Source of the DNA: Caldicellulosiruptor changbaiensis
Lineage (GTDB): Bacteria; Bacillota; Thermoanaerobacteria; Caldicellulosiruptorales; Caldicellulosiruptoraceae
Length of the DNA stretch: 64,000 nucleotides
Assembly: GCF_003999255.1 (NCBI RefSeq)
Contig: NZ_CP034791.1
Coordinates: 1,466,501 to 1,530,500 of the forward strand
Direction of reading: 5' to 3'
Shown: in pieces, positions 5,685-60,702 of the stretch
Position numbering within the stretch: position 1 is the first letter of the stretch
Layout of the letters: every line of letters begins with the position of its first letter
Translations under genes and position numbers: made by a program
Notes under the pieces: generated by a model
What the model was told of the DNA's origin: nothing
What the model saw: only the letters and a program-made list of their open reading frames with translations
The model's database searches: none

Positions 5685-6329
5685 TTATTGAACTGTGATA
5701 GAATCCTTAATAGCTTCAAATATCTTATCCCCTATGCCATTTACATTTTTTATTTCTTCTATACTCTTAAACGGACCATGTTTTTGTCTATATTCTATTA
5801 TCCTTTCTGCAAGTTTATCACCTATTCTATCAAGAGTCTTCAGCTCCTCTTTTGATGCGGTATTAATATTTATCTTACCACTTTGGCCTGACGAACTTGT
5901 ACTGTTTTGTGCTACCTCAGAAGCCAGATTGCTTTGAGTCTGCATCTCACCAATTTTGGGAATGTAAATCTTCTGTCCATCCTGGATCTTTTCAGCAAGG
6001 TTTAAGCTATTTATATCACTGTTTGGTAAAACGCCACCAGCTACCTCTATTGCATCGTTTACTCTGCTACCACTCAGAAGCTCATAAACCCCAGGCTTTT
6101 TTACGTTGCCACAGACATACACTACACACTTTTGTTGTTCATAGGGTTTGTCTGTTTGCACATCTACCTTTTCTTGACTCTGTTCATCTATTGTCTGAGT
6201 GTCAAGCTTTATCTGCTGACCAAGATTTTCACTTGTATTTGTGTGTGTTACATATTGAAATATATTCAGTAGAAGAAGTACTACAATTATGGCAATCATT
6301 ATCTTTTCTCTTTTTGAGAATGAAACCAC
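5685..6329 (-). CDS. comEA: ComEA-type DNA-binding competence protein
   Basis: Membrane-anchored receptor for DNA uptake. Residues 9-25 form one N-terminal transmembrane helix, followed by a polar linker. An SLBB domain covers about 68-130 (VVYVCGNVKKPGVYELL to GQKIYIPKIG). A helix-hairpin-helix DNA-binding domain covers about 150-214 (ININTASKEEL, IGDKLAERIIEYR, INGIGD-like NVNGIGDKIFEAI). The GTG start has an AAGGTG site 7 bases upstream. It is divergent from dacF. The order anchor-SLBB-HhH is that of Bacillus ComEA. No comEB or comEC lies beside it; a ComEC-like hydrolase lies at 31.7-32.6 kb. Confidence 0.9.
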   Translation of the reverse strand: MVSFSKREKIMIAIIVVLLLLNIFQYVTHTNTSENLGQQIKLDTQTIDEQSQEKVDVQTDKPYEQQKCVVYVCGNVKKPGVYELLSGSRVNDAIEVAGGVLPNSDINSLNLAEKIQDGQKIYIPKIGEMQTQSNLASEVAQNSTSSSGQSGKININTASKEELKTLDRIGDKLAERIIEYRQKHGPFKSIEEIKNVNGIGDKIFEAIKDSITVQ

Positions 6330-10710: not shown

Positions 10711-11922
10711 TTACTTAACTTTAATATACACATCAAATTTGTCACTGTAATCAGGAGAATATACAACTTGATAAGTGGAAAGGTCAATGTCATTTTTTAA
10801 TAACTCTAAGTATTTTCTATTTACTCTTTTTAACTCAACCTCGCTGCTTTCAAGCTTACTTACCCTTCCAAGATTAACATTTGAATATCCTTTTGACTCA
10901 AGGTCATTTTTAAGCTGGGTTGCTTTATCATCAAATGACCCTGATAAGATTTTTATCTTCATACTATCTTTTAACACCTCAGGTTCATTCAAATCATCAA
11001 TTAAAGCTTTACATTTTTCTTCATTTAAGATGTAATAAGAGACTCTGTCAATATACTTAGGATACCCTGGTAAGATTGTCATCATGATATTTTGTGTATT
11101 GAACTTTCCAACATTTTGTATAAACCACATTATTTCATTTTTCGTAAAATTATGGTCAGTATATTTAGAAACTGTCTGGACAATTAGTGGAAGTCTTACT
11201 ATGTTTTGTGGTTTTAACATCTTTTCAATGAGGGCATATAAAAGTTTTCTTTGCATCTCTATGCGTCCTAAATCGCCGCCTCTACCATATTCTTTGCCAT
11301 TTGAGTTGTGTCTCCAGCGCAAAAACTCCACAGCCTTTTTGCCATCAAGATGCTGAAGACCAGCAGGGATATTAATATAAAGCTCTTTGCCAGGTGTTGT
11401 GTCAACATAATAAAGGTGGAATGGTACCTCAACATCAACACCGCCAACCAAATCCACTATCTTTTCAACAGCCTCATAGTTTACAACCACGTACTTGTCA
11501 ATCTTTATACCAAGAACATCCTCTACTGTTTTTACAGCAAGCTTTGATTTCCCATAGGCATAAGCAGCATTTATCTTTGAATACCCTTTTATCCCCTCAA
11601 CTTTTACTCTTGTATCTCTTGGTATTGAAATTACAATTGGTTGAAAGTCTTTTTGTATATGAACAAGCATTATTGTATCTGACCTTCCACCCTGCTTTTC
11701 ATCACATCCCAGAACAAGAATATTCATAGGAAGCTTGTCTTCTATATCAGCAGGCTCAGTGTTTGTTACCTTTTCAATAATGTTGCTCAAAATTGGAGGT
11801 AATGTCTTTGTTTGTTTAATATATAATGCAGTTGCTAAGATACCTATAAGCACAATAGCAACTGTTATCAGAAAAGAACTTAAAAATATCTTTGCCTGTT
11901 TTTTAAGTCGTATCCTCTTCAA
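10711..11922 (-). CDS. LytR-CpsA-Psr family glycopolymer transferase
   Basis: A 403-residue membrane-anchored enzyme of the LCP family, which transfers lipid-linked cell-wall polymers to peptidoglycan. A basic N-terminus and one transmembrane helix at about 13-33 place the rest outside. LCP blocks are visible: NILVLGCDEKQGGRSDTIML, VISIPRDTRVKV, GYSKINAAYAYG, and DGKKAVEFLRWRHNS with the conserved Arg residues. A C-terminal LytR_C-like domain occupies the last ~90 residues. It overlaps yqeK by four bases. This copy is intact, unlike the second LCP gene at 21.7-23.0 kb. Confidence 0.9.
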   Translation of the reverse strand: MKRIRLKKQAKIFLSSFLITVAIVLIGILATALYIKQTKTLPPILSNIIEKVTNTEPADIEDKLPMNILVLGCDEKQGGRSDTIMLVHIQKDFQPIVISIPRDTRVKVEGIKGYSKINAAYAYGKSKLAVKTVEDVLGIKIDKYVVVNYEAVEKIVDLVGGVDVEVPFHLYYVDTTPGKELYINIPAGLQHLDGKKAVEFLRWRHNSNGKEYGRGGDLGRIEMQRKLLYALIEKMLKPQNIVRLPLIVQTVSKYTDHNFTKNEIMWFIQNVGKFNTQNIMMTILPGYPKYIDRVSYYILNEEKCKALIDDLNEPEVLKDSMKIKILSGSFDDKATQLKNDLESKGYSNVNLGRVSKLESSEVELKRVNRKYLELLKNDIDLSTYQVVYSPDYSDKFDVYIKVK

Positions 11923-15934: not shown

Positions 15935-15980
15935 ACTATACAAAAGTATAGTTGACAAAATATTAATAGTGGTATATAGT
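15935..15980 (+). promoter_or_regulatory. Island promoter 1 with inverted-repeat operator
   Basis: A perfect inverted repeat, ACTATACAAAAGTATAGT (15935-15952; seven-base arms, AAAA centre), abuts and overlaps by one base the -35 box TTGACA (15952-15957). A 17-base spacer and TATAGT (15975-15980) follow. The same arrangement occurs at 18004-18048, so the repeat is probably a regulator's operator. The regulator is unknown. Confidence 0.65.
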
Positions 15981-16029
15981 TATAGTAAGAAAATCCAAAT
16001 ATTTGATAGTATAAAGGAGGCGTTTTGCC

Positions 16030-16062
16030 ATGTTGTTTAGTACTTTCATTAATAGTTCTTAG
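16030..16062 (+). other. Tiny ORF 1 (10 codons) with strong Shine-Dalgarno
   Basis: ATG at 16030 follows AAAGGAGG by nine bases and encodes MLFSTFINSS. A near-identical start, MLFYTFIR, occurs in the second promoter copy at 18098. It may be a leader peptide, a small signalling or toxic peptide, or the surviving N-terminus of a lost gene. Beyond it, up to 16237, I see only a weak 35-codon open frame from a GTG at 16125, without a clear ribosome site. Confidence 0.35.
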
Positions 16063-17095: not shown

Positions 17096-17545
17096 ATATT
17101 TGCATTTCCTTTTTATAGTAGCATATTTGTTTTAAATGAACAAGAACTATTTAATCAAAATCTCATTAAAGGATTAAAAGCAATATGGGCTGGATATAAA
17201 GCTGATACTGAAGATAGAGAAAAATATAATGATTCAGTATTACACAATGGCAATGGCGATGCATTTAGACATGCATATTGGAATGCATTAATGGTTAAGT
17301 ATATTGATTATAGCTGGGCTTATGATTGGGCAACAGCTCATGAAGAAGGCGCTACTGGACAGCCTGCTATAGAAAAAGAAATGGATTTATATAATAATAT
17401 GATGGGTCGAACGTTAGTGCTCGGTAATGAATCAAAATCTGATGAAGAAATTGCCGATATAATACAAAATGCAGTTAGAAACGGAAAGATGAAAAGAATT
17501 GTAGATAATAAATTAGTTCCAACTAACTCTGAAGGAGAGAAGTAA
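17096..17545 (+). pseudogene. DUF6973-type domain gene, 5' end missing or frameshifted
   Basis: The frame is open from 17096 to the TAA at 17545, but has no ATG, GTG or TTG before the ATG at 17291, which lies inside the domain. The domain shows NGNGDAFRHAYWNALMVKY, AYDWATAHEEGATGQP and EKEMDLYNNMMGRTL. I recognise these as the DUF6973 pattern (conserved His and Glu residues), seen in secreted or toxin-like proteins of Firmicutes. Just upstream, a hydrophobic stretch (LFRFVVKYLHFLFIVAYLF) lies in another frame and ends next to a T-run. That fits a lost signal peptide joined by a frameshift. The last ~30 codons are duplicated at 18128-18214. A two-helix membrane protein follows after two bases. 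Function unknown. Confidence 0.6.
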
Positions 17546-18003: not shown

Positions 18004-18048
18004 CTATACAAAAGTATAGTTAACAAAATATTAATGATAATACATAGT
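18004..18048 (+). promoter_or_regulatory. Island promoter 2 with inverted-repeat operator
   Basis: The inverted repeat CTATACAAAAGTATAG (18004-18019) is followed directly by TTAACA (18020-18025), a 17-base spacer and CATAGT (18043-18048). Operator, spacing and the following Shine-Dalgarno match copy 1, but both hexamers are one base weaker. The 80 bases before it (17920-18003) hold nothing I can assign. Confidence 0.55.
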
Positions 18049-18097
18049 CATGGTTAGATATCTAAATATTTGTATAGTAGAAAGGAGACTTTTTGTC

Positions 18098-18124
18098 ATG
18101 TTGTTTTATACTTTCATTAGATGA
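18098..18124 (+). other. Tiny ORF 2 (8 codons), copy of tiny ORF 1
   Basis: ATG at 18098, 10 bases after AAAGGAG, encodes MLFYTFIR. It matches the first copy at the codons for MLF, TFI and most third positions. Its stop lies at the junction with the DUF6973 tail relic, so the end differs from copy 1. Confidence 0.35.
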
Positions 18125-18127
18125 GAT

Positions 18128-18214
18128 ATTGCTGATATTATTCAAAACGCAGTAAGAAGTGAGCAGATGAAAAGAATTGTAGATAATAAATTAGTACCTA
18201 CAAATTCTGAATGA
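18128..18214 (+). pseudogene. Deleted second copy of the DUF6973 gene (C-terminal tail only)
   Basis: Codons for IADIIQNAVRSEQMKRIVDN plus KLVPTNSE and a TGA parallel the end of the intact-frame copy (IADIIQNAVRNGKMKRIVDN plus KLVPTNSEGEK). The stop arose where copy 1 has GGA. Immediately upstream the homology continues out of frame and then joins the tiny ORF. A deletion has therefore fused the promoter region to the tail of a duplicated cassette. Confidence 0.75.
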
Positions 18215-18254
18215 GAGAAGTTAATTAAATAATGTTTAGAAGGTGAGCATTTTT

Positions 18255-21712: not shown

Positions 21713-23054
21713 CTACCTTCCACCATATACATTTGAAACTACATCTGAAGAAGTAGACGGTGTATTGACTTGAATTTCAGATTCAGTTGTAGCTTGTTGC
21801 TGCTGAGCGCTTTGAGTAGTTTGGCTGTCATTTTCAGGTGGCAAAGTTTGAGTGCTCTCACTACTATTTCTCCACTGTGCATCAAATGGACTTGAGCTTT
21901 GCGTGCTGTTTTCTATAGTTTCAGTCTGCTTCTGTACTAAATTTACTTCCGAATTACTTTGACTGTTCTGATTTTGGCTACTTTCAGTACTATAAGACTT
22001 ATTTGTATGGCTATAACTTATATTATTCTCCTTTTTGGCCTTTACAATAATTCTTCTTGCGTATTTATATTTCTCTGGCATCTTAAGGTCAATTTCTATA
22101 TCATATCCAAATAAATCCTTAACGAGCTTCTTTATTCCTTCATAATCAGGCTTCCAGTAACTTACTCCCATGTAGTTAAAATAATCGCCAGGAATACTTT
22201 CAAATACAATGTCCTCTTTTTTCATATTCTGTGCAAAATAGGCCAAAGATGTTATCTGTTGAAGAGATAAATTTGTATAAAAATGTCGTCTTATTTTCCA
22301 GTATATCTCTGGAAGAGTTATTATTTTGTTACTTTCTTTTAACTGTTCAAAAACCGAAAGAATAAGTTCTTTGTCTCTTTTAATACGGTCAATATCACCA
22401 CCTGGGGTTTTTCTCCAAAGAGCGTAGTAAAGCGTTTCAATACCATTTAATTTCTGATACCCAGGCTTTAAATCTATGTTAACCCATTTTGTCTTCACTT
22501 TTACTGGAACCTCAACATTTACATAGACCCCACCTAAGATATTTACAACTTTTCTTACTGCATCAAGGTCAAAGCCTACATAGTACTCAATTGGCATACC
22601 ACCTAATAGCTTGCTAACAGTCTCCATTGTGTAAAAAAAACCTTCTTCCTTCTCTCCTCCCCCATAGCCAAATGCACTATTTATCTTGTCCCACTTACCA
22701 ACCTTGTATATTTCAGTCAAGGTGTCTCGTGGGATAGAAATACCTTTTACCTTCTTGTCTTTAAAGTTTATGTTTAAAAATAAGATTGTATCCGTTCTGT
22801 GCAAATCATATGTACTGCGATTACTTGCCTTGTCAAGTCCAATAATTAATATATTGACACTATTTTCGTCAAAATGGGTACTTAACTTGTGCTTTATTAC
22901 TTTTTGCCGGCACTTTTTTAACAAAAACCTTTTCAATGTGTTTTGCATCAATTACAAATATCTTGTACAAATACCCTAATATGCCCCCAAGAACCACAAC
23001 TGCACTTATTAAAATGATTAATAGTTTGTTTTTTAGTATTTTCCCCATACCCAA
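21713..23054 (-). pseudogene. LytR-CpsA-Psr transferase, frameshifted after the membrane anchor
   Basis: The last gene of the polysaccharide locus. The N-terminal frame starts at a TTG at 23054, with AAGGAG seven bases upstream. It encodes a transmembrane anchor (LLIILISAVVVLGGILGYLY) and stops at 22869. The catalytic frame, displaced by one base, is open from about 22951 to 21713. It carries the LCP blocks VNILIIGLDK, GISIPRDTLTEIY, DKINSAFGYGGG, and DIDRIKRDKELIL with the conserved Arg residues. It then has a C-terminal domain and a Ser/Thr/Gln-rich tail of about 100 residues. Removing one A from the six-A or five-A run at 22900-22925 would restore a single ~445-residue protein. This is a mutation, a sequencing error or recoding. 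Confidence 0.8.
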
Positions 23055-23086: not shown

Positions 23087-24184
23087 TTAACCTACAATCC
23101 TTTTGTAAAAATCGAATAGTTTTTCTTCTTCTTTTGACCAATTGTACATCTCAATAAAAGCCCTATATCCATTTTGTCCTTTATTTATAATCTCTTGACG
23201 ATTGTTATAAAAATACAAAATAGCACTTTTAATCTGCTCAATGTCCGTAGGATCAACAATAACCCCACAGTTGCTACTTTCAATTATACCTTTCCACAGC
23301 TCAAAGTTCGAAGCAATTATAGGCACACCTGCTGCCATGTATTCAAAAAGTTTGAGTGGAAGTGATGTCAAATACCGTTTCAATGGCAAAAGAGTGACAA
23401 ACCCAATATGTGCATTCTTCAAAATATCAGGAACACGGCTTTTGGGCACTCTTCCCCAAATTTTTATCTTTTCATTTTCAAATTTCTTTATTTCTTCGAA
23501 ATAATCACTGCTTTCGGCAGGTCCTATAATATCTAACTTTATATTAAGATTTTGCAAATCTTTTACCGCTAAAATTAAATTTGTAATTCCCCTATGATAT
23601 GATACACTTCCAATATAAACAAGATTTATTGTGCCATCTAAGTTATACTCCTGCCTTTTTTCGTACATATCAATAGTTGGGAAATTCTTTAATATAACCT
23701 TATTTTTGCAATTGAATTTATTAAAAATGTCTTCGGTGACAACAACCACACCATCAAATAATTTACTCACATTTTTTTCAAAGAGATTAAAAGTAGAAGA
23801 AAAAAGGCTTCTTAAAAGTTTTGGTAAATACTCGCGGTCCTTAAATGCTAAAGAGTAATCTTCATGAACATCGTAGATAACTTTTTTCTTGAGTATCAAT
23901 TTAAAATACAAGGCCAGAAGCAAAAGGTCTGGATCGTGAAAATGAATTATGTCTGGCTTTTCTTCTTTTACTATCCTTATAATCTTTGAATAATTTTTAT
24001 ACCTCTTTGCTCTCGATAGCTTTTTTAATCCATAGATTTTTATACCGTCTACAACCTGCAAATCATTCTCTGCTACGGCACATAAAACAGTCTCATACCT
24101 TTTTTTTAAACTTTTTGTAATTTTATTAAACACTCTTTCATCGTCCCAAGGATGTGCAGATGACAAAACTAATACTTTTTTCAA
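23087..24184 (-). CDS. Family 4 (GT-B) glycosyltransferase
   Basis: A 365-residue cytoplasmic glycosyltransferase that adds a sugar to a lipid-linked or growing glycan. The N-terminal half has VLVLSSAHPWDDERVF and KPDIIHFHDPDLLLL. The C-terminal donor-binding half has LVYIGSVSYHRGI and the FEYMAAGVPIIAS block with the conserved Glu. The TTG at 24184 overlaps the upstream stop and has AAGGAGAG eight bases upstream. The longer frame from 24253 lies inside the neighbouring gene. The sugar specificity cannot be read. Confidence 0.85.
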   Translation of the reverse strand: MKKVLVLSSAHPWDDERVFNKITKSLKKRYETVLCAVAENDLQVVDGIKIYGLKKLSRAKRYKNYSKIIRIVKEEKPDIIHFHDPDLLLLALYFKLILKKKVIYDVHEDYSLAFKDREYLPKLLRSLFSSTFNLFEKNVSKLFDGVVVVTEDIFNKFNCKNKVILKNFPTIDMYEKRQEYNLDGTINLVYIGSVSYHRGITNLILAVKDLQNLNIKLDIIGPAESSDYFEEIKKFENEKIKIWGRVPKSRVPDILKNAHIGFVTLLPLKRYLTSLPLKLFEYMAAGVPIIASNFELWKGIIESSNCGVIVDPTDIEQIKSAILYFYNNRQEIINKGQNGYRAFIEMYNWSKEEEKLFDFYKRIVG

Positions 24185-25467
24185 TTTTCTGGCTCTCCTT
24201 TGTCCTCTTGTGGACTTGTTATTATAAAAAGTGCAAGTGCAAACAAAAACCACATGATCCTCATCTCTATCATCTTTGACGAACTTATGCTTGAGATACC
24301 AAATGCAGCAAGTGAAGCTATTGTTGAAACTGCTGGCAATTTTAATTTATTGTTTGAATCTTTAACGTGTAGTAGTTTGTATATTATATAAAAAATCCAA
24401 ATTATATAGAACGCAAAAACAATTAAACCATAACATACGAGCACATCTAAAAACCAATTATGAAGTTCCACGTTTATAGTATACTGTCTTACCTTTTCCA
24501 TCAAAACTCTGCTGTTTCCTGCTCCAACACCCAAGAAAAGATAGTCATACAAAAATGAAAGACCATACACAATCAAAAGTTCTCTTCTCACATTTGATGT
24601 AAGTGAGCTTGTTGAAAAATCAGAAAGCGAGGATAGTTGAGTTGTAATCACCCCTCCTATTTTACTCAAAAAACCAAAGTCTAACCTAAAACCAATGAGA
24701 ACTATTAAAAATAAGAAAATGACAAACGCATACTTCAAATATTCTCTTTTTTCTGAGCTATCAATTAACAAAAAGTATACTAGTAAAGCTAAAACAAAAC
24801 CTATATAATTTGCTCTGCTTGTGGTAAGTATTAAAAGAGGCACTGACAACAAAGCTACAGTTAAAGCTACTATTTTCTTAAGAGTTAGTAGCTTTTCACG
24901 TACAATAAAATTCAAAATAAACGGTAGATACAACACCAAATAAGTAGCAAAATCGTTTGGGTTTGCAAAAAAGGTTGATGGTGTTCTGTGTAAGTTATAT
25001 AGAGGAATCTTGGATGTCCAAAGATGTCTATCTGTTATAATCTCCCAGTATCCAACAAGGATGTTTACTACATACGAGAACAAAATAATGTTTTCTAAAA
25101 CATTCCATTTTATGTAGTTCGAGTAATACATAAAAATTAAAATAACTACGATATTTACCGTTAAAAATACCTGGTCGCGAATAGCACTTTTAATATCCTG
25201 TGCCCACAAAAAGCTAAGGAGAGAATACGTACTCCATCCAACTAAAAAATACGAAGAAAAATTCAAAAACCTCTTTATCTCAACCCCATTTAAGATTATA
25301 TCTATGCAAATCAGTACAAATAAAAATCCTAAAAATATCCTATATAAAAAAAGGTAACTCAAACGAGGATACGCAAGTGTACTGCCAAAAAAACTGGCCA
25401 AAAAAGTGAGGTATATAAAAAGCGGCAGATACTCTTGTTTCAATCTAAGATGAAAAGGCTTTCTCAT
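24181..25467 (-). CDS. O-antigen ligase/polymerase-like membrane protein (second)
   Basis: A 428-residue protein with 10-12 predicted helices and the Wzy_C/O-antigen ligase layout. It has a large loop with HLWTSKIPLYNLHRTPSTFF and the block GAGNSRVLMEKV followed by VELHNWFLDVLVCYG, with the conserved His of the family. It overlaps the glycosyltransferase and the first ligase-like gene by 4 and 23 bases. It is probably a polymerase or ligase for the polysaccharide made by this locus. Confidence 0.75.
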   Translation of the reverse strand: MRKPFHLRLKQEYLPLFIYLTFLASFFGSTLAYPRLSYLFLYRIFLGFLFVLICIDIILNGVEIKRFLNFSSYFLVGWSTYSLLSFLWAQDIKSAIRDQVFLTVNIVVILIFMYYSNYIKWNVLENIILFSYVVNILVGYWEIITDRHLWTSKIPLYNLHRTPSTFFANPNDFATYLVLYLPFILNFIVREKLLTLKKIVALTVALLSVPLLILTTSRANYIGFVLALLVYFLLIDSSEKREYLKYAFVIFLFLIVLIGFRLDFGFLSKIGGVITTQLSSLSDFSTSSLTSNVRRELLIVYGLSFLYDYLFLGVGAGNSRVLMEKVRQYTINVELHNWFLDVLVCYGLIVFAFYIIWIFYIIYKLLHVKDSNNKLKLPAVSTIASLAAFGISSISSSKMIEMRIMWFLFALALFIITSPQEDKGEPEN

Positions 25468-26641
25468 CCTTTTGTCTCCACCTTCTAAATTTTCGTAAAA
25501 TCAAGGCTATATAATAGACATAAATCAAGTTTACAACCATCATTCTCACGTTTGTTATCTCAGCCATGTCAAACATTTGAAATATCGTGATACAAACCAG
25601 GCCAACAAATACCATCCAATCAGAACTTTCGTTTGACCTCGCAATATTAAACGTAGAAACAAAGACAAGAAAATATACTAAAAAAATAAACATCCCATAT
25701 CCTATTATACCATATTCAATAAGAGCATTTAAAAATAAATTATGGGCTGAGTGAAGCAAGACAATCCCAGGTGGTTTTAAACTTCTAAACAGGCTTTCAA
25801 ATTGCCCTGCTCCAATTCCTTCAAATAGATTTTTATGCTTAAAGTAATTTAGAACAAACTCTATTGCAAAGATTCTCTGTCCCACCGCATTTTTTGTATT
25901 GTATATATCAGAAACTCTCGGAATTCTATAAATAATCTTAGGTAAGAACAAACACAAAATCAAACTCAAACCCATAAAAAACTTTCCTATATTTTTGCGA
26001 ACAAGTTTTATGTTTATAAGGACCGCCTCAAAGAGATAGACCAAAAAGCCCGTCCTTGATCCAGAGAGCAAAATCTCTAAAAATATAACGAGGGTCCCTC
26101 CTATCTTCAGCCTATCGCTCTTTAAAAAGCTCAATACAAAGGGATAAACCATTACTAAAAAGAACGCAAAGATGTTAGGATTGAAAAAAATCGAAATTGT
26201 CCTTTCCTTATAAGATTTGAACAGCAAATAATATAAATATTCAAATATACAAACTAATGAAGCTATCACAAACGTGAAAAGCCAAACTTTTTTAATTCGA
26301 TATAAAAGATTGTTGTCGGCCAGAGTAAACAGGACATAGAACAAAGCTGGAATGACAAAAGCATTTACCATACCTAAAGTAGCTTTGTTCTTGTCCATGG
26401 CATTTTTGAAGAATAAAGTCGCAAGTAGAAGCATTGCAATATAAAAAAACAGAGGAATAAGTTCAATAGCCTCAAATTTCAACTTTGGTTTATAATAGTA
26501 GATTACCAAAGCAATAATAAATAGCAGAAAAAGATAAAAAGGTATATAAGAAAACCTTACAATCTGAAATAAAACTATCCCTATTATACTCAAAACAATT
26601 TCAGTTTTACTGGTTTTCAAGAAGCTGATCACTTGGTACAT
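25445..26641 (-). CDS. O-antigen ligase/polymerase-like membrane protein (first)
   Basis: A 398-residue polytopic membrane protein of the same superfamily as its neighbour. It shows GTLVIFLEILLSGSRTGFLV and the late block IGAGQFESLF followed by HSAHNLFLNALIEYG, with the conserved His. The ATG at 26641 has GGGAG seven bases upstream; the frame extends to 26671 inside the acetyltransferase gene. Two adjacent members suggest that one polymerises and the other ligates, but which is which is unknown. Confidence 0.72.
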   Translation of the reverse strand: MYQVISFLKTSKTEIVLSIIGIVLFQIVRFSYIPFYLFLLFIIALVIYYYKPKLKFEAIELIPLFFYIAMLLLATLFFKNAMDKNKATLGMVNAFVIPALFYVLFTLADNNLLYRIKKVWLFTFVIASLVCIFEYLYYLLFKSYKERTISIFFNPNIFAFFLVMVYPFVLSFLKSDRLKIGGTLVIFLEILLSGSRTGFLVYLFEAVLINIKLVRKNIGKFFMGLSLILCLFLPKIIYRIPRVSDIYNTKNAVGQRIFAIEFVLNYFKHKNLFEGIGAGQFESLFRSLKPPGIVLLHSAHNLFLNALIEYGIIGYGMFIFLVYFLVFVSTFNIARSNESSDWMVFVGLVCITIFQMFDMAEITNVRMMVVNLIYVYYIALILRKFRRWRQKDEKAFSS

Positions 26642-27347
26642 CTCTAAGCTCCCTTGCAGGATTTCCAACAACTATCTTGCGTGGCCTTACATCTTTTGTC
26701 ACAACACTACCAGCACCCACAAATCCTTCTTCGCCAATCACTTTGCCAGGCAAAATTGTTGCATTTGCGCCAATTCTCCCGCCACGCTTTATTGTTACAC
26801 CTTTGAAATACTTTACTCTGTCCTTGCCTCTTCCTGCAAAGTTGTCATTTGATGTGACAACACAAGGCGCAATAAAAGCCCAATCCTCAATCTCCGAAAT
26901 TGCTGTGATATATGCGTTTGTCTCTATTTTGCAATAGCTTCCTATGTTAGTTTTATTCTCAATACTAACTCCTCTTCCAATAATCGTATACTCACCTATC
27001 TTTACATTTTCTCTTATTGTCACAAGGTCTGCAATATAGACATTTTGGCAAATGTGAGCACCTCTGTAGACAATAGAGTTTGCACCAATCTTTACACCAT
27101 CTTCTATAAAAGTTGGTGGCAGTGTCACATCCTCAGTTGTCTTGCTTGCCAAAGCCCTTTGAGGAAACTTTCCTATAATTGTTCCATCCGATATCTCTAC
27201 GTTGTTTCCTATTATACTTCCAGTTTTTATAACAACATTGTGGCCAATCTTACAGTTGTCTCCAATGACAACATCATCTTCTATTACAACAAAATACCCA
27301 AACTCAACATTACTGCCTATCTTAGCACTATCACTTATATACCTCAT
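26607..27347 (-). CDS. Hexapeptide-repeat N-acetyltransferase (WbpD-like)
   Basis: A 246-residue left-handed beta-helix protein, with repeats such as IGDNCKIGHNVVIKTGSIIG and IGANSIVYRGAHIC through most of its length. Its C-terminus IVVGNPARELRDVPSD is typical of nucleotide-sugar acetyltransferases. In the neighbourhood of the other three enzymes it would acetylate the 3-amino group of UDP-2-acetamido-3-amino-glucuronate with acetyl-CoA. It overlaps the oxidoreductase gene by four bases. WbpD is the closest functional analogue by context; sequence identity was not measured. Confidence 0.75.
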   Translation of the reverse strand: MRYISDSAKIGSNVEFGYFVVIEDDVVIGDNCKIGHNVVIKTGSIIGNNVEISDGTIIGKFPQRALASKTTEDVTLPPTFIEDGVKIGANSIVYRGAHICQNVYIADLVTIRENVKIGEYTIIGRGVSIENKTNIGSYCKIETNAYITAISEIEDWAFIAPCVVTSNDNFAGRGKDRVKYFKGVTIKRGGRIGANATILPGKVIGEEGFVGAGSVVTKDVRPRKIVVGNPARELRDVPSDQLLENQ

Positions 27348-28468
27348 TTTCTGACTCTCTGCCTTTCATATTCTTTTTTTACATCAAGCGCCGAGAAGTT
27401 GCCAAGTGGAAATTTCACAGGCCTTTTTTCAATAGCAGATTTATATGTTCCTAAGATTATCTCAAGCGACCTTTTTCCCTGCTCACCTGTCACAAGCGGG
27501 TCATGTCCATTTTTTATTGCTTCAATTACATCTCTAAAAAGAGGTGTATGTCCAAATCCATACACATTATCAGGATTTTCAGCAAACTTCTCTATTACCT
27601 CTTTTTCATCTTCCTCTGGGACACGCCACACAACAATCCTGTTGACAGAGGTGCCCCCAAGAACAGCTGTACCTGTTTCACCAAAAATACTAAGCGTCTC
27701 TTCTAAATTAGATGGCCATACACATGTTGTACCCTCTATAATACCGCGCGCACCATTTTTAAATTTCAACAAAGCAAAACCTGTGTCTTCTGCTTCAATT
27801 GGACGCAAAAATGTTTCGATATCTCCATAAATTTCGTCAACATCACAATCTATAATCCATTGTAAAAGATCTATGTTATGTGTACACTGGTTCATAAGCG
27901 CACCGCCATCTTGTTCCCATGTGCCACGCCAAGCACCTTGTTTATAATATTCATTGTTTCTGTTCCATCTTATGTTTGCAACACCGTAAAGGATTTTGCC
28001 AAACTTGCCACTTTCTACTGTTGCTTTTAACTTCTGTACACTTTTGTTGAATCTATTTTGTAAGCATACCGCCAAAACTTTTTTCTTTTCCCTTGCCTTT
28101 TGAATCATTTTATCTGCATCCTCAATAGAAAGTGCCATAGGCTTTTCAACAATCACATGCTTACCAAAATCCAGTGCTACAAGCGTCTGCTGGGCATGAC
28201 AGCCACTGAATGTAGCAATATCAACTATATCAGTGTCTTGTTCTTTCAACATCTTGATATAATCAGTATATATTGGAATTTCCCTTTTTATTTCAATTCC
28301 CTTGCTTTTTAAAAGCTCATAATACTTTTGTCTTGTCTTTTGAGCTCTTTCTTCGATCAAATCACAAAACCCGACAACTTCTAAGCTATCGAAGTTGTTG
28401 GCATAAGCTTCTGCATGCTTGAATGATATTCGACCACATCCAATCAAGCAAACCCTTAGTTTGTCCAT
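27344..28468 (-). CDS. Gfo/Idh/MocA oxidoreductase (WbpB-like UDP-sugar 3-dehydrogenase)
   Basis: A 374-residue NAD(P)-dependent dehydrogenase. The Rossmann motif is VCLIGCGRISFKHAEAY, the family EKP motif is in HVIVEKPMALS, and the catalytic-region His is in LMNQCTHNIDLLQW. Placed between a UDP-sugar 6-dehydrogenase and an acetyltransferase, it fits oxidation of C3 of UDP-GlcNAcA to the 3-keto sugar, the substrate of the aminotransferase upstream. Specificity is inferred from context. Confidence 0.78.
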   Translation of the reverse strand: MDKLRVCLIGCGRISFKHAEAYANNFDSLEVVGFCDLIEERAQKTRQKYYELLKSKGIEIKREIPIYTDYIKMLKEQDTDIVDIATFSGCHAQQTLVALDFGKHVIVEKPMALSIEDADKMIQKAREKKKVLAVCLQNRFNKSVQKLKATVESGKFGKILYGVANIRWNRNNEYYKQGAWRGTWEQDGGALMNQCTHNIDLLQWIIDCDVDEIYGDIETFLRPIEAEDTGFALLKFKNGARGIIEGTTCVWPSNLEETLSIFGETGTAVLGGTSVNRIVVWRVPEEDEKEVIEKFAENPDNVYGFGHTPLFRDVIEAIKNGHDPLVTGEQGKRSLEIILGTYKSAIEKRPVKFPLGNFSALDVKKEYERQRVRK

Positions 28469-28486
28469 ATTTCACCCTCCAAAAAC

Positions 28487-29800
28487 TTATAGTTTGTATA
28501 TCTTTTCAGATTTTATCCCTTTTGTTGCATTCCTCGTATCGAATATGAGCTTTGCATTCTCCACTATAAATTGATAGTCGTATTTGGAATGATCAGTTGT
28601 AATTACAACAATGTCATATTGACCAAGAGTCTCAGCTGTAAAATCCACTGATGTATATTGTTTCCCTTTATAAGTAAAACCCGGCACATATGGATCATTG
28701 TATTCAACAATCGCATTTTCCTTTTCAAAGTTTTCAATTACCTTTAAAGCAGGTGACTCTCTTATATCATCAATGTCTTTTTTATACGCAACACCTAACA
28801 CCAGTATTTTTGAGCCATTCAGGGGTTTTTTGAATTTGTTCAGTATTTTCATAACCCTTTCAACAACATATTCTGGCATGTAGTTATTTATCTCGCCAGC
28901 AATTTCAATAAGCCTTGTATGATAGTCATACTCACGTGCCTTCCAAGTAAGATAAAACGGGTCAATTGGTATACAATGACCACCAAGGCCAGGTCCGGGA
29001 TAAAACGCCATAAAACCATACGGCTTTGTCTTAGCTGCTTCAATTACTTCCCAAATGTCAATGTTCATTCTCTCACATAAAATAGCCATTTCATTTACAA
29101 GTGCAATATTTATGTTTCTGAATGTATTTTCTAAAATCTTTTCCATCTCTGCAACCTTTGGTGAACTTACCCTAAAAACTTCGCCTTCTAAGACATTTTC
29201 ATATAGCCTTGCAGCAATTTCTGTACATGTTGGAGTAACTCCACCCACAACCTTAGGTGTATTTTTAGTATTATACACTTTATTTCCTGGGTCAACACGC
29301 TCAGGAGAAAAGGCTAAGAAAAAGTCCTGACCACACACAAGCCCACTTTCTTCTAAGATTGGTTTTACAACCTCTTCTGTTGTCCCAGGATATGTTGTGC
29401 TTTCTAAAACTACAAGCATACCTTTGTGAAGGTATTTTGCAATCTCTTTTGTTGAGTTTACAACATACGAGATGTCTGGTTGTTTATATTTGTCAAGCGG
29501 AGTTGGAACACAAATAGCCACTGCATCAACCTCTGCAATCTTGCTATAATCAGTGGTTGCAAAAATTCTTCCTTCTTTGACAAGCTGTTCAAGCTCTTTG
29601 TCAACGACATCTCCGATGTAATTTTGTCCTTTATTTACCATGTCAACTCTCTTTTGCTGTATATCAAATCCAATTACCTTATACCCTGCCTTTGCTTTCT
29701 CAACAGCCAAAGGTAATCCAACATATCCAAGCCCAACAACACCAATCACTGCTGTCTTTTCTTCAATCTTTTTTAAAAGCTGCTTTGCAATTTCATTCAT
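28487..29800 (-). CDS. UDP-sugar 6-dehydrogenase (WbpA-like)
   Basis: A 437-residue NAD-dependent dehydrogenase that oxidises C6 of a UDP-hexose to the uronic acid. The N-terminal GVVGLGYVGLPLAVEKAKAG Rossmann motif, STTYPGTTEEV, the catalytic Cys in GLGGHCIPIDPFYL and the C-terminal VLGVAYKKDIDDIRESPAL are all present. This set is typical of the UDP-GlcNAc/ManNAc type. It shares one base with the aminotransferase stop. With its three neighbours it suggests UDP-GlcNAc as substrate. Confidence 0.88.
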   Translation of the reverse strand: MNEIAKQLLKKIEEKTAVIGVVGLGYVGLPLAVEKAKAGYKVIGFDIQQKRVDMVNKGQNYIGDVVDKELEQLVKEGRIFATTDYSKIAEVDAVAICVPTPLDKYKQPDISYVVNSTKEIAKYLHKGMLVVLESTTYPGTTEEVVKPILEESGLVCGQDFFLAFSPERVDPGNKVYNTKNTPKVVGGVTPTCTEIAARLYENVLEGEVFRVSSPKVAEMEKILENTFRNINIALVNEMAILCERMNIDIWEVIEAAKTKPYGFMAFYPGPGLGGHCIPIDPFYLTWKAREYDYHTRLIEIAGEINNYMPEYVVERVMKILNKFKKPLNGSKILVLGVAYKKDIDDIRESPALKVIENFEKENAIVEYNDPYVPGFTYKGKQYTSVDFTAETLGQYDIVVITTDHSKYDYQFIVENAKLIFDTRNATKGIKSEKIYKL

Positions 29801-30909
29801 TATACATTCCCTCCAAATTCATTTATTGATGAGATGATAAACTCCATCTCCTCCTCTGTAAGTTCCGGAAACATTGGAATAGCAAATGACTTTCTACAGA
29901 CTTCTTCTGCCACCTTAAAGTCTCCTTCTTTATACCCTAAAAACTGTAGTGCCTTTGTCAAATGTAGCGGTACAGGATAATATATGCCTGTTGCAATTCC
30001 TTTTTGTGATAAGTACTTAATAAGATCATCACGCTTTTCATGCTGCAAGACATATAAATGGTAAATATGTCCTCTTTCACAATTATTTGTCTTTGCAGGC
30101 GTGATCAAGCCATTAAGTTTTAAGCCTTGATCGTACCTTTGTGCAATCTGAGATCTTCTTTTGTTCCAATCATCTATGTATTTCAATTTTACGAGCAAGA
30201 TAGCAGCTTGAATTTCATCAAGCCTACTGTTAAACCCAATAAGTTCATTGTAGTATTTCTTCTTTGACCCGTGCTGGCGAAGCATTCTTGCTTTTTCTGC
30301 AACCTTATCATCATTGGTCACAATTAAACCACCATCTCCAAAACCACCCAAGTTCTTTGTTGGAAAGAACGAGAAACATCCAACATCACCAATTGTCCCT
30401 GCTTTTTTGCCATTGTATTCTGCTCCAAAAGCCTGGCACGCATCTTCTATGACATATAAGTTGTATTTTTTTGCTATTTCTAATATTCTGTCCATATCAC
30501 ATACCTGGCCGAATATATGCACAGGGATGATTGCTTTGGTTTTTGGTGTAATTTTCTCTTCAATCTCCTCAGGGTTTATATTATAAGAAAGGCGATCAAT
30601 ATCAACGAAAACTGGTTTTGCACCAACTCTTACAATAGCTTCTGCTGTTGCAAAAAAAGTAAATGGCGTTGTGATTACCTCATCACCATTTCCCACACCT
30701 ACACTCTCGAGTGCTATTACTAAAGCATCTGTACCATTACCAACGCCTATGCAGTGCTTAACATTTAAATATTCACTGCACCTTTTTTCAAATTCTGAAA
30801 CCTTTGGTCCCAGTATGTACTGGCCACTTTGCAAAACCTCGGTTATAGCCTCCCTTATCTCATTTGACAACATTGTATACTGTCGTTTTAGGTCAATTAG
30901 AGATATCAT
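29800..30909 (-). CDS. DegT/DnrJ/EryC1 aminotransferase (WbpE-like)
   Basis: A 369-residue PLP-dependent sugar aminotransferase. The PLP-binding Lys lies in FSFFPTKNLGGFGDGG, with IEDACQAFGAEYNG and GVGNGTDALVIAL before it. In this locus it would aminate the 3-keto group of the UDP-uronic acid using glutamate. The start is the ATG at 30909, with GGAG about eight bases upstream; a longer frame begins at 30924. WbpE assignment is by context. Confidence 0.85.
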   Translation of the reverse strand: MISLIDLKRQYTMLSNEIREAITEVLQSGQYILGPKVSEFEKRCSEYLNVKHCIGVGNGTDALVIALESVGVGNGDEVITTPFTFFATAEAIVRVGAKPVFVDIDRLSYNINPEEIEEKITPKTKAIIPVHIFGQVCDMDRILEIAKKYNLYVIEDACQAFGAEYNGKKAGTIGDVGCFSFFPTKNLGGFGDGGLIVTNDDKVAEKARMLRQHGSKKKYYNELIGFNSRLDEIQAAILLVKLKYIDDWNKRRSQIAQRYDQGLKLNGLITPAKTNNCERGHIYHLYVLQHEKRDDLIKYLSQKGIATGIYYPVPLHLTKALQFLGYKEGDFKVAEEVCRKSFAIPMFPELTEEEMEFIISSINEFGGNV

Positions 30910-30945
30910 TTTTTTCATCTCCATTCGTAAAATGTTATTTTTTTA

Positions 30946-44474: not shown

Positions 44475-44825
44475 TTACAAGCGAATACCATCCACATAAA
44501 TATTAATATTACCTGGTTTTAAGCCAGTGTATTTTTCAATTGCATACGATACCCTCTCCTTGATATTTTCAGCAATTACAGGAATTCTTGTACCATATTC
44601 CACAATTATATGGATATCAGCATTAACAACTCCATTTTCTGCTATGACTTTTATCCCTTTTTGAAGGTTTTCTCTGCCAAGTAAATTTACAATCCCATCT
44701 GTAACACTCTTTGATGCCATCCCAACAACGCCATAGCTCTCCATACTGCTCAACCCTATAATTGTTGCAATACAATCATTTGTTATCTCTATCTTACCAA
44801 ACTCATTTTCAAAATACACACCCAT
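44475..44825 (-). CDS. Asp23/Gls24 family protein (YloU)
   Basis: A 116-residue DUF322 protein, found at the membrane and linked to envelope stress. The N-terminus GKIEITNDCIATIIGLSSME and the late TGLKPGNINIYVDGIRL are typical. The yloU-fakA gene pair is conserved in Firmicutes. Confidence 0.92.
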   Translation of the reverse strand: MGVYFENEFGKIEITNDCIATIIGLSSMESYGVVGMASKSVTDGIVNLLGRENLQKGIKVIAENGVVNADIHIIVEYGTRIPVIAENIKERVSYAIEKYTGLKPGNINIYVDGIRL

Positions 44826-44838
44826 ATTTTTTCATCTC

Positions 44839-45423
44839 CTATCTTTTTACAATCTTTGAAAGTCGCTTATAAAGCACAAATGTTACAATAGATATTATCG
44901 CTCCTTTAATGAGGTTAAACGGTATAATTGAAAACAATACCAGAGTGAACTTATCAGTAATGAGACTATTGAACTTTGCAGCAAGTTTTACTATCTCTGT
45001 TATAGGAAATTTTAAAGCCTTTTCATACAAAGGAAGAAGTACAAAATAGTTCAAAATTCCTGCCCAGATTGAAAAAACTAAGGTAGATAGTGCTAAAGCT
45101 AATATAGCTCCCTTTTTTGTTCTATTCTTATTGTATATGTATCCAGCAACAAATACGAAACAACCACCTATCATAAAGTTTGCAAGCTCACCTATTCCAG
45201 CTGTTTTTGTAACAAAAAGATGAAGTACATTTTTCAAGAATTCAACTGCAACTCCTGACAAAGGCCCTAATGCAAATGACAAAATAAGTGCTATTGAGTC
45301 ACTGAAATCAAGTTTCAAAAAATCTGGAAATATCCCCAGGGGAAACTCAATAAGCATTACAACAAAAGCAAGTGCACCAAATATAGAAATCTTAACAAGA
45401 TTTTTTATCCCTGCCTGGTTCAT
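44839..45423 (-). CDS. ECF transporter substrate-binding subunit (RibU-like)
   Basis: A 194-residue S component with about six helices. It has the Ala-rich first helix (ISIFGALAFVVMLIEFPLG) used to bind EcfT, and the loop LKLDFSDSIALILSFALG typical of the riboflavin type. No FMN riboswitch is present: the gap upstream is only 32 bases. The energising module encoded at 62.3-64 kb probably powers it. Confidence 0.8.
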   Translation of the reverse strand: MNQAGIKNLVKISIFGALAFVVMLIEFPLGIFPDFLKLDFSDSIALILSFALGPLSGVAVEFLKNVLHLFVTKTAGIGELANFMIGGCFVFVAGYIYNKNRTKKGAILALALSTLVFSIWAGILNYFVLLPLYEKALKFPITEIVKLAAKFNSLITDKFTLVLFSIIPFNLIKGAIISIVTFVLYKRLSKIVKR

Positions 45424-49896: not shown

Positions 49897-51827
49897 GTTG
49901 CCACCTTTTTGACAAACACAAAATTAGAATTAAAAGCAGCCTGAGAGTCTTTTTCAGCTGTAAAACCAAAAAGACAAGAGTTTATTGTCTCAATCTTTTC
50001 ATTTTGAAATCCCTCTTCAACAATTATAAATCCTCTGCCAACATTTTCGCTTATACAAGCCTCCAAAATAAAACCTCCACATCCATTGTATATTAAAATT
50101 CTATCCCTGTCTGAGATGTTTAACCTCTTTGCATCAAGAGGATTGATATAAGCAAGCTTTTTTCTTTCAAAAAACTCTTGAGAGTGCAGCGTCTTGTCAG
50201 AGTGAATTGTAACAAGTCTTAGCTGATTTTTCAAAGGTTTTTGAGTATGATCCAAAGCTGGTACAGCTACTCCTAATTCTTCACTCTTAAACTCAAATTT
50301 CTTGCTCTTTGTCAAAAATACTCTGTCTTCCCATGGCACATCGATTGCACAGCCTCTTGTAAAATGGCCTTCAAGTTTTATATTCAGGTTTTTCTCAAGG
50401 TGCTGTTTTACAACATCTACCCACTCTTTTTCGGATTTTATAGGAAAATCAAGATTTAGCCTTTTTGCAAGCTCATTTATTATCTCAACCTCTGACTTGG
50501 CTTCACCTATCTTCTCAATAGCCTTTTCTGAAATGCCTATATAGTCATGCCACATATTCGGGATGAATATATCTTCCTTTTCCAGAAAACTTGCTGCAGG
50601 CAAAATTAAGGTAGAGGCATAAGAAGTTGCTGTCAAGAACATATCTACATTGACCACAAACCTTTTTTGAAGTTCCCTGAACACCAAGTCAGAATCAGGA
50701 CATTGCGAAACAGGATTTCCTGCTGAGATATAAACAAATTCAATTGGCGGATCTGATAAACTCTTGAGATACTCTCCAAGTTTTGCTCTATTATAAAAAC
50801 GCTTATTCACAGCCCTCTTGTCATCTTTGAAAACAGGCTCGAGATTTTGAGTAAACCTGTGAGCAAAATTCGCACCGCCACCTTTTATCCCTACATTCCC
50901 AGAAATTGCAACAAGATAGTCAATTGTCCTGACTGTATTAACACCATTTGTATATCTCTGTGGTCCATAGCCAATAAAGGTTGAAACAGGCTTTTGCAAA
51001 AAAACCTGTGCAACTTGTTCAATTACTGCTTTCGATATCCCACACTTTTCTTCAACCTCTTTATATGAAAGACTTTCGGCAATTTTCTTTACTTCTTCAA
51101 ACCCAATAGAATGATTATCAATAAAATTTCTATCTTCTTTGCCATTTTCAATTATATACTTAATTGCTCCATACGCAAGATAAGAGTCAGAAGATGGTTT
51201 TATCACAATTCCTATATCAGCTATCTTAAAAGTAGGAGATTTATATATATCAATCACCATTACTTTTTTGCCCTGCTTCTTAGCCTCTAAAATAAGATAA
51301 TAAAGGTGAATGTTCGTCCAAAGCGCATTTCTCCCCCATAGCACAATCCAGTTAGAATTGAATAAATCAAAAGGTGAATGAGAAAGAGAGTTTCCAAAAT
51401 CTGTTTTCTGAGCAAGAAGACCCGCACCCCAACAAAGGCTACCTTCAGAATATGTAGCTCCGCCCAAGTAATCAAAAAATAGCCTCTCTATATTTTTTAA
51501 ATATCCTTCGTATCCATCGCCACTGTAGTACAAGATAGCACTTGAATTGTATCTTTTCAAAATTTCTTCTATTCTCTCTGCTATCAGATCAAGTGCAGTA
51601 TTCCAGTCAACCTCGTGAAAATCGTTTTTCACTCTCAAGAGGGGTTTTTTTATTCTCTCCTCAGAGTAAACTTTGTCAAGTAGTCTATAGCCTTTTTTGC
51701 ACAAAAAACCCCGAGTAATGGGATGGTCTTTGCTACCCGAAAGTTTTAAAGCCTTGCCATCTTGTACTTCTGCCAAAATTGCACAGCTGTCAAAACAATC
51801 AAGCGGGCAGAAAACTTTTTTAATCAT
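49893..51827 (-). CDS. Molybdopterin oxidoreductase of the DMSO-reductase family
   Basis: A 644-residue bis-MGD enzyme. The N-terminal [4Fe-4S] motif is C7-PLD-C11-FDS-C15 with C43 in ITRGFLCKKGY. ERIKKPLLRVK, DWNTALDLIAERIEEIL and the C-terminal dinucleotide-binding domain (RLVTIHSDKTLHSQEFF) follow. There is no twin-arginine signal, so it is cytoplasmic. A Cys in SEGSLCWGAG lies where a metal ligand could be, but this is uncertain. No partner iron-sulfur or membrane subunits are adjacent. The substrate cannot be inferred. The ATG at 51827 follows GGGGG. Confidence 0.8.
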   Translation of the reverse strand: MIKKVFCPLDCFDSCAILAEVQDGKALKLSGSKDHPITRGFLCKKGYRLLDKVYSEERIKKPLLRVKNDFHEVDWNTALDLIAERIEEILKRYNSSAILYYSGDGYEGYLKNIERLFFDYLGGATYSEGSLCWGAGLLAQKTDFGNSLSHSPFDLFNSNWIVLWGRNALWTNIHLYYLILEAKKQGKKVMVIDIYKSPTFKIADIGIVIKPSSDSYLAYGAIKYIIENGKEDRNFIDNHSIGFEEVKKIAESLSYKEVEEKCGISKAVIEQVAQVFLQKPVSTFIGYGPQRYTNGVNTVRTIDYLVAISGNVGIKGGGANFAHRFTQNLEPVFKDDKRAVNKRFYNRAKLGEYLKSLSDPPIEFVYISAGNPVSQCPDSDLVFRELQKRFVVNVDMFLTATSYASTLILPAASFLEKEDIFIPNMWHDYIGISEKAIEKIGEAKSEVEIINELAKRLNLDFPIKSEKEWVDVVKQHLEKNLNIKLEGHFTRGCAIDVPWEDRVFLTKSKKFEFKSEELGVAVPALDHTQKPLKNQLRLVTIHSDKTLHSQEFFERKKLAYINPLDAKRLNISDRDRILIYNGCGGFILEACISENVGRGFIIVEEGFQNEKIETINSCLFGFTAEKDSQAAFNSNFVFVKKVAT

Positions 51828-51850
51828 TATATAGCCCCCAAAAATTTTTT

Positions 51851-52690
51851 TCACATTTCTACAAAGTCAAGACTAATATCAAGACTTTTTACAGAATGAG
51901 TAATACTACCGACTGATATAATGTCAACCCCTGTTTTTGCAATCTCCTCGATATTCTCCAATGTTATATTGCCAGATGCCTCAATCAAAGCCTTCCCTGA
52001 TGCTGCTTCTACAGCTTTTTTCATATCATCAAGCCCAAAGTGGTCAAGCATGATAATATCAGCACCTGCTTCAAGTGCTTCTTCAAATTCATTCATTGTC
52101 CTCACTTCAACCTCTATCTTCATTGTGTGAGGTATGTTTTCTCTTGCTCTTTTTATTGCCTCTTTTATACTTCCTACAGCTTTGATATGGTTGTCTTTTA
52201 TCAAAACTGCATCAGACAAGGAATACCTATGGTTTTTCCCACCACCAACAAAAACTCCGTACTTGTCAAGCATCCGCAAAAGAGGAACAGTCTTTCTTGT
52301 GTCTGTCACAATTGCCCTGTAACCTTTTATCTTTTGAGAAAGTCTATTTGTAACAGTTGCAACCCCGCTCATCCTCTGAAGCAGATTCAGGGCTAACCTT
52401 TCACCTTTTAAAATTGCTCGAGTATTTCCTTTAATCTTTGCTAATATATCTCCCTTTTTAATAGGTTCTCCATCTGATTTTATCTTTTCAAATTCTATAT
52501 TTTCATCCAGTATCTCAAATACCCTTTTCGCAACATCTATACCACATAAAATTCCATCTTCTTTCGCAATTAAAATGGCCGAAGATATACTGTCTTGAGG
52601 TATCAACAGGTCTGTTGTTATATCTCCATATGGCATATCTTCTATCAATGCTTCCTTGATAAGCTTATCGACTATTAAAAAATTCAACAT
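51851..52690 (-). CDS. nadC: Nicotinate-nucleotide pyrophosphorylase
   Basis: Makes nicotinate mononucleotide from quinolinate and PRPP. Signatures YGDITTDLLI, NLLQRMSGVAT, TDTRKTVPLLRMLDKYGV and GGGKNHRYSLSDAVLIKDNH are present, and ASGNITLENIEEIAKTGVD lies near the end. Last of nadA-nadB-nadC. Confidence 0.96.
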   Translation of the reverse strand: MLNFLIVDKLIKEALIEDMPYGDITTDLLIPQDSISSAILIAKEDGILCGIDVAKRVFEILDENIEFEKIKSDGEPIKKGDILAKIKGNTRAILKGERLALNLLQRMSGVATVTNRLSQKIKGYRAIVTDTRKTVPLLRMLDKYGVFVGGGKNHRYSLSDAVLIKDNHIKAVGSIKEAIKRARENIPHTMKIEVEVRTMNEFEEALEAGADIIMLDHFGLDDMKKAVEAASGKALIEASGNITLENIEEIAKTGVDIISVGSITHSVKSLDISLDFVEM

Positions 52691-56705: not shown

Positions 56706-58194
56706 ACTCATTCACCATCTTTGCATAGTATATTCCAAGGTCAAGAAAACCCATGAGCAAAGCTATAATTATTGTGCCAGAGTCGTTAAGCAAATACGCA
56801 AACAGACCAATTATAAAAAACACCACAAATTTGTCCTTATGACCTTCTACTGAAGGCAGTATATTAAATCTTTTTTGAACAATGATCAAGAACAATATCA
56901 CAAAAGCCAAAAGCACCAATATTGTTGCAGGGTACTGAAAAAGATAGGAAAGATTCATAAGCATTTTTCTTTTTGCAATAGAAACAAAAGTATCAAAACT
57001 TGCAAATGCTTTATATACATAGCTATTTTTCAAAATTAAAATCAAAGCAAGTGGCACAAAAACAAATAGCGTTGCTAACATTTTGATTTTATGTCTTGTT
57101 TTGAAAAGCAAAAATATTATAATGCCAGCTACAATAGATAAAAATCCTCCGAAATTCACACCATAATATGGAATTATCAAAACAAAGGTAGTCAAGAATA
57201 AAATTATAAATAGATTCCTGAGAGACATATTGCTAACAATTGATAATATAAATATGAAACCCATTAAATACGAAAAAAACTCATTTCCAATCCCATAGAA
57301 TCTATTTGCAAACGAAGGATGATATCCTGCTGTTGATAAAAGCTGTAGAATATTGTCGAATAAAAACGCCTGACCCAAGATTGAAAATATTCCAAAAAGA
57401 GAACATATAAGCTGTGAAGTTTTTAAACTAAGAGAAGAAGTGATAAGTGTTATTAAAAAGAATACTGCTAAAAATAAAAAAATGTTGTTTATCTTCAAAA
57501 TAAGCAAGGGGGAATAGATAACAAATATATACCCTACCATTACAGTTGTTGGTATAAATTTCAAAAAGAATTTATTGTATTTTTCATTTGGTTTTGAGAG
57601 AAAAATTATTGCACCCAGCACCGAAAAGATGATTATAATAGCAAATAAGGGTATCAAAAAGTTATTTAAATGTTGCAGCTGATAATTCAAAATCCAAAAA
57701 TGTCGCCACAATTTTACAACAAAGTCTTTTGAAATAGGAACGTTGTTGCTTTCATTGTAATTATCTTTTATTAGCTCTAAAAACTCTCTATCTAATATAA
57801 GTCCTTTTCTTTTTGTGTCAGCTGACTTTTTTGTCCAAAACCCGTTTTTTAAATAGCTGCTAAAAACAAATGCAAGCCTGTCATCACCACTGTATAAAAA
57901 AAATAAACCTTTGTTTTGAGTGTAAATCGCCTCTTTATTGTTTTCCAAATTTATTCCGTTTTTCTCAAGATAATCTCTGACATTCAAAGAATCTTTTTGG
58001 TTTTTTAACACAACGATTACTGCAAATCCGCCTTTTTTGTTCTCCAGAGCTTTTTTTATATCCTCATAAAAATTTGTATCGCCAAAGACCCTGCTTTCAA
58101 ACTTGAAAAAATTCATCGAAAAACAAGTACTAAAAAAAGCGCTACTCAATATTATGGTCAATATAAAACTTAACAATCTCTTCCAATATCTCAT
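56692..58194 (-). CDS. Large integral membrane protein with [10 protein letters not shown] motif
   Basis: A 500-residue protein. An N-terminal signal helix is followed by about 150 extracellular residues, then 11-12 transmembrane helices. The block [18 protein letters not shown] is a motif I recognise from uncharacterised bacterial membrane proteins. I cannot assign a function. The ATG at 58194 has AAGGAG about ten bases upstream. Its start overlaps the end of ireB by 53 bases and its end overlaps the aldo/keto gene by 14. Confidence 0.7.
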
Positions 58195-60678: not shown

Positions 60679-60702
60679 TATGCCCTCACTTTTATAAAGC
60701 GC

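Follow-up and report, generated by a model that had tools for sequence, protein, structure and literature searches.

The Caldicellulosiruptor changbaiensis DNA analysed here, a stretch of 64,000 nucleotides referred to below as the window, carries a LytR-CpsA-Psr (LCP) gene on its minus strand (23054 to 21713) that is split by a frame change of one base. The break consists of a single added T, and it is best explained, with fair assurance, as a recent and real one-base insertion into an otherwise normal LCP gene, which would make the gene a fresh pseudogene or a strongly reduced allele. The original prediction described a membrane anchor and a catalytic domain lying one base out of frame with each other, and the 61 aa and 412 aa open reading frames bear this out (Table 1). 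The region proposed for the junction, 22860–22960, contains the true site, but the narrower interval suggested for inspection, 22900–22925, misses it by a few dozen bases.

Table 1. Coordinates in the window of the split LCP gene, its parts and related features
Feature	Position	Strand	Description
LCP gene, 5′ part	22869..23054	-	61 aa ORF; short N-terminal cytoplasmic segment, a single transmembrane anchor and a linker that ends in ...KYPF before the TGA
LCP gene, 3′ part	21713..22870	-	catalytic LCP domain and Ser/Thr/Gln-rich tail, in a frame one base away
Mechanical ORF holding the LCP catalytic part	21713–22951	-	412 aa; upstream limit 22951
Break	22871..22874	-	four T versus three in the closest relative (G008); gives CCA TTT TGA C
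Second LCP gene, intact	10711..11922	-	PF03816, E 3.2e-43; 428 aa open frame without stops
Glycan-type genes adjoining the LCP gene	23087..30924	-	assigned by Pfam scans

That the gene belongs to the LCP family, as was first suggested, is well supported. The 412 aa frame matches the Pfam family LytR_cpsA_psr (PF03816) with an E value of 1.7e-36 and 126 bits (cut-off 24.6), and the catalytic part matches 17 distinct sequences of the PDB (E up to 0.001), with MsrR, TagT, TagU, TagV and Cps2A among them. The 61 aa frame has a hydropathy maximum of 2.73 over 19 residues, LLIILISAVVVLGGILGYL. In G008 and every other congener one continuous frame joins this anchor part to the catalytic domain, and a hydrophobic N-terminal stretch in frame with the LCP domain can be recognized by eye in all 11 of them; in C. 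changbaiensis the anchor and the domain lie in different frames and are not part of the same polypeptide. Export of the catalytic part as a separate protein via an internal start is ruled out by a hydropathy scan, which finds no hydrophobic segment in the first 60 residues of the catalytic frame. The broken gene descends from LCP genes, yet its standard product here is no anchored LCP enzyme.

When the catalytic part was used as a query in whole-genome searches of C. changbaiensis and 40 relatives, a match was found in all 41 genomes. The comparison with close relatives, which had been put forward as a check, is clear-cut. The gene is one open frame of 440–485 aa, measured from stop to stop, in 11 of 11 genomes of the genus and in the one genome from elsewhere in the family, and the longest frame left of this gene in C. 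changbaiensis is 412 aa. Since all 12 are intact, the break is limited to the window assembly, and on this comparison of frames the split exceeds chance. The alignment with G008 spans 1341 bases and has 12 substitutions and a single gap, apart from which the two genes are 99.0% identical. The gap is an extra T in the window, in the minus-strand sequence CCATTTTGAC (AAAA on the plus strand), and it turns the in-frame CCA TTT GAC into CCA TTT TGA C. The 11 congeners have CCN TTT GAY in frame at this place; nine of them carry a longer T-run (CCT TTT) and are unbroken, and the run of G008 is only three bases long. The runs of six and five A that had been associated with the frameshift are present on the minus strand near 22900–22919, but both are identical in G008 and the only gap lies elsewhere, so that they are ruled out as its cause; the break is to be placed at 22871–22874. 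C. changbaiensis is represented by one contig of 2,905,633 bp and G008 by 2,970,275 bases. PMC10434631 gives an ANI of 95% for C. saccharolyticus and C. changbaiensis.

The same alignment bears on the age of the insertion. Eleven of the 12 substitutions fall after the break, four of them silent and seven amino-acid changing, and except for those of codon 68 they are found at codon 367 or later, that is, in the tail. Positions 21954–22849, most of the catalytic domain, form an uninterrupted stretch of 896 bases identical to G008. Against this, the alignment of the whole window with G008, 60,292 columns, has 4.6% mismatches, so that the break must be younger than the shared sequence. Judged from the alignment the insertion is young. 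The identical run is the second longest between the window and G008; others are at 51757–52662 (906 bases), 57129–57908 (780 bases) and 44533–45156 (624 bases). Because long identical runs occur elsewhere in the window, the low divergence of the LCP gene is no special evidence of selection. The pattern suggests a likely mosaic exchange, or recombination, between the lineages of the window and G008.

Translation from the normal start would yield the membrane anchor and then stop at the TGA. The catalytic domain would be made without an anchor or an export signal and would be unable to reach a lipid-linked substrate outside the membrane; it is because the domain is left unanchored and unexported that the gene is regarded as a fresh pseudogene or a strongly reduced allele. 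We infer that the extra base is genuinely present in cells and that LCP function of this gene is lost. The suggestion that such a loss would matter is weakened by the second, intact LCP gene of the window. Its product has an N-terminal transmembrane segment of its own (hydropathy 2.77), and the two proteins share 30% identity across 270 aligned positions; these are the only two LCP matches in the whole genome. Loss of the first enzyme could be tolerated through the second, encoded 10 kb away, and this paralogue probably does make the loss tolerable. LCP proteins are described as typically present in several partly redundant copies (PMC7831098).

The genes that adjoin the broken LCP gene encode a group 1 glycosyltransferase, two O-antigen ligase/polymerase-like (Wzy_C) proteins, a hexapeptide transferase, a Gfo/Idh/MocA oxidoreductase, a UDP-sugar dehydrogenase and a DegT aminotransferase. 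From its position, it is plausible that the LCP gene attaches the glycan of this neighbouring locus, as had been proposed. The two Wzy_C genes beside it are tandem and overlapping (24181–26671). Elsewhere in the window, region 15830–19540 matches nothing in the G008 sequence compared and by eye has a decayed look, with short ORFs and partial duplications (approximately 15940–16060 resembles 18005–18125, and 17440–17545 resembles 18120–18215). At 5685–5699 and at 60683–60697 G008 is longer by approximately 1.26 kb, and the flanking matches overlap by 15 bases at each place, as an insertion-sequence copy with target duplication would leave.

The main rival explanation is an error of assembly or base-calling, in which case the cells carry an intact LCP gene and the extra base exists in the deposited sequence alone. 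Nanopore R9.4.1 reads processed with Albacore are liable to run-length errors, although the usual Nanopore error shortens long runs, and an insertion that turns three T into four is atypical. The genome of strain CBS-Z (CP034791) is described as a Unicycler assembly with long reads of this type, but it is a hybrid assembly in which Illumina reads were used too (PMC6395861). The same source gives 2,532 of 2,779 genes as protein-coding, which leaves room for a good number of annotated pseudogenes, real or artefactual. In favour of an error are also the confinement of the extra base to one assembly, the perfect preservation of the LCP domain itself, and other flagged breaks in the assembly that include extra bases in A-runs, a common type of error. 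One such added base relative to G008, from A7 to A8, breaks an ORF at contig positions 1,797,992–1,798,784, and another in an A-run breaks an ORF at 1366274–1367802. However, in a survey of 1.2 Mb each of C. changbaiensis (approximately 41% of its genome) and G008, broken genes were not in excess over G008. The survey units were ORFs called mechanically, each 120 aa or longer, and not annotated genes, with true start codons checked for part of the flagged rows, and these rows include copies of repeated genes and compensated indel pairs. By a strict test, in which a gene counts as broken when the longest remaining frame is under 80% of the match, the 731 matched G008 ORFs include eight that are broken in C. 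changbaiensis, and the 742 matched C. changbaiensis ORFs include 25 that are broken in G008, a number inflated by repeated gene families. The LCP gene retains a frame above the 80% limit and is therefore absent from the eight. When the test is confined to syntenic pairs and internal breaks, 12 of 633 are flagged in C. changbaiensis and 20 of 629 in G008; the LCP gene figures on both lists, since its one indel is registered in either direction. A third genome (G011) was compared over 400 kb only; a match in it spans three of the 12 flagged breaks, the LCP gene among them, and it bears on these three alone. The second spanned break consists of two nearby opposite indels, and in the third case the longer ORF of C. 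changbaiensis matches G011 over its full length and G008 has the shortened one. An assembly full of run-length errors is rejected on the strength of both surveys. They argue against a generally indel-ridden sequence, though not against a single wrong base at the LCP site. All in all, a sequencing error at this site is considered unlikely, though it deserves to be taken seriously.

The extra base could alternatively be real and functional, with ribosomes slipping by +1 on TTT TGA C, as they do in prfB, and providing a useful level of full-length LCP protein. The geometry of the prfB site is indeed present, i.e. a codon able to re-pair after a +1 slip, followed by TGA and C (22868–22874, minus strand). 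The prfB gene of C. changbaiensis itself has a stop-interrupted frame with AGGG and then CTT TGA C (contig 788275–788290), and T-run variants of prfB in which tRNA-Phe reads the run are reported from 21 genomes surveyed (PMC12421855). According to the same report, the T-run sites of prfB keep an internal Shine–Dalgarno-like element. However, none of the Shine–Dalgarno-like tetramers sought is found upstream of the LCP site, against three overlapping ones in prfB, and because this element is missing at most a leak is expected. The predicted RNA fold around the site is no better than that of shuffled sequences (z -0.05), which rules out a structured recoding stimulator. The interrupted arrangement is present in none of the 11 congeners nor in the same-family genome, all of which are in frame. 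Moreover, a T added to any CTT GAC or TTT GAC pair yields the prfB geometry automatically, and the coincidence is cheap because there are 811 such places in 1,055 G008 ORFs (approximately 1% as many as there are runs of at least three). A literature search returned nothing on UUU UGA. A weak leak at the LCP site is possible; programmed recoding is unlikely, and recoding that is functional is very doubtful. It would be more far-fetched still to see here a newborn recoding site, in which a chance insertion gives a low level of full-length LCP protein, higher whenever release factor 2 runs short. Both sequencing error and +1 recoding were named from the outset as alternatives, and neither is favoured over a real mutation.

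It follows for the annotation that the LCP gene of the window assembly is not to be called intact, and the finding has little significance beyond the strain. If the mutation is real, CBS-Z would be a naturally occurring Caldicellulosiruptor that lives with a single anchored LCP enzyme. Should the site leak, it would illustrate in a simple way how +1 slippage can soften an accidental insertion.

A literature search on Caldicellulosiruptor together with LytR-CpsA-Psr proteins returned nothing. The gene shares the PF03816 domain with the LCP glycopolymer transferases, a family that moves lipid-linked glycopolymer onto peptidoglycan, such as TagT, TagU and TagV of Bacillus subtilis and LcpA (MsrR) of Staphylococcus aureus, and its best PDB matches extend over about 200–250 residues of solved LCP domains. 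In LCP proteins, as described in PMC7831098, the membrane anchor is N-terminal and the catalytic domain behind it is predicted to be extracellular, and a transmembrane anchor preceding the domain is likewise encoded here. The gene differs from the known transferases in that a frame change separates its anchor from its domain and in having a long C-terminal tail of low complexity. With the programmed +1 frameshift of prfB (CTT TGA C) the LCP site has in common a slip-capable codon before TGA C and a gain of +1 in frame. The differences are TTT in place of CTT, an upstream region devoid of a Shine–Dalgarno-like element, and conservation in no relative. No feature was found that sets the gene apart from single-strain frameshift pseudogenes. 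As in these, a one-base change in a short run affects a gene that is otherwise intact, the orthologues are intact in all of the genus and family relatives examined, and a paralogue is present. The split gene is thus an ordinary LCP frameshift of a single assembly, most likely a real and recent mutation, with sequencing error as its main rival.
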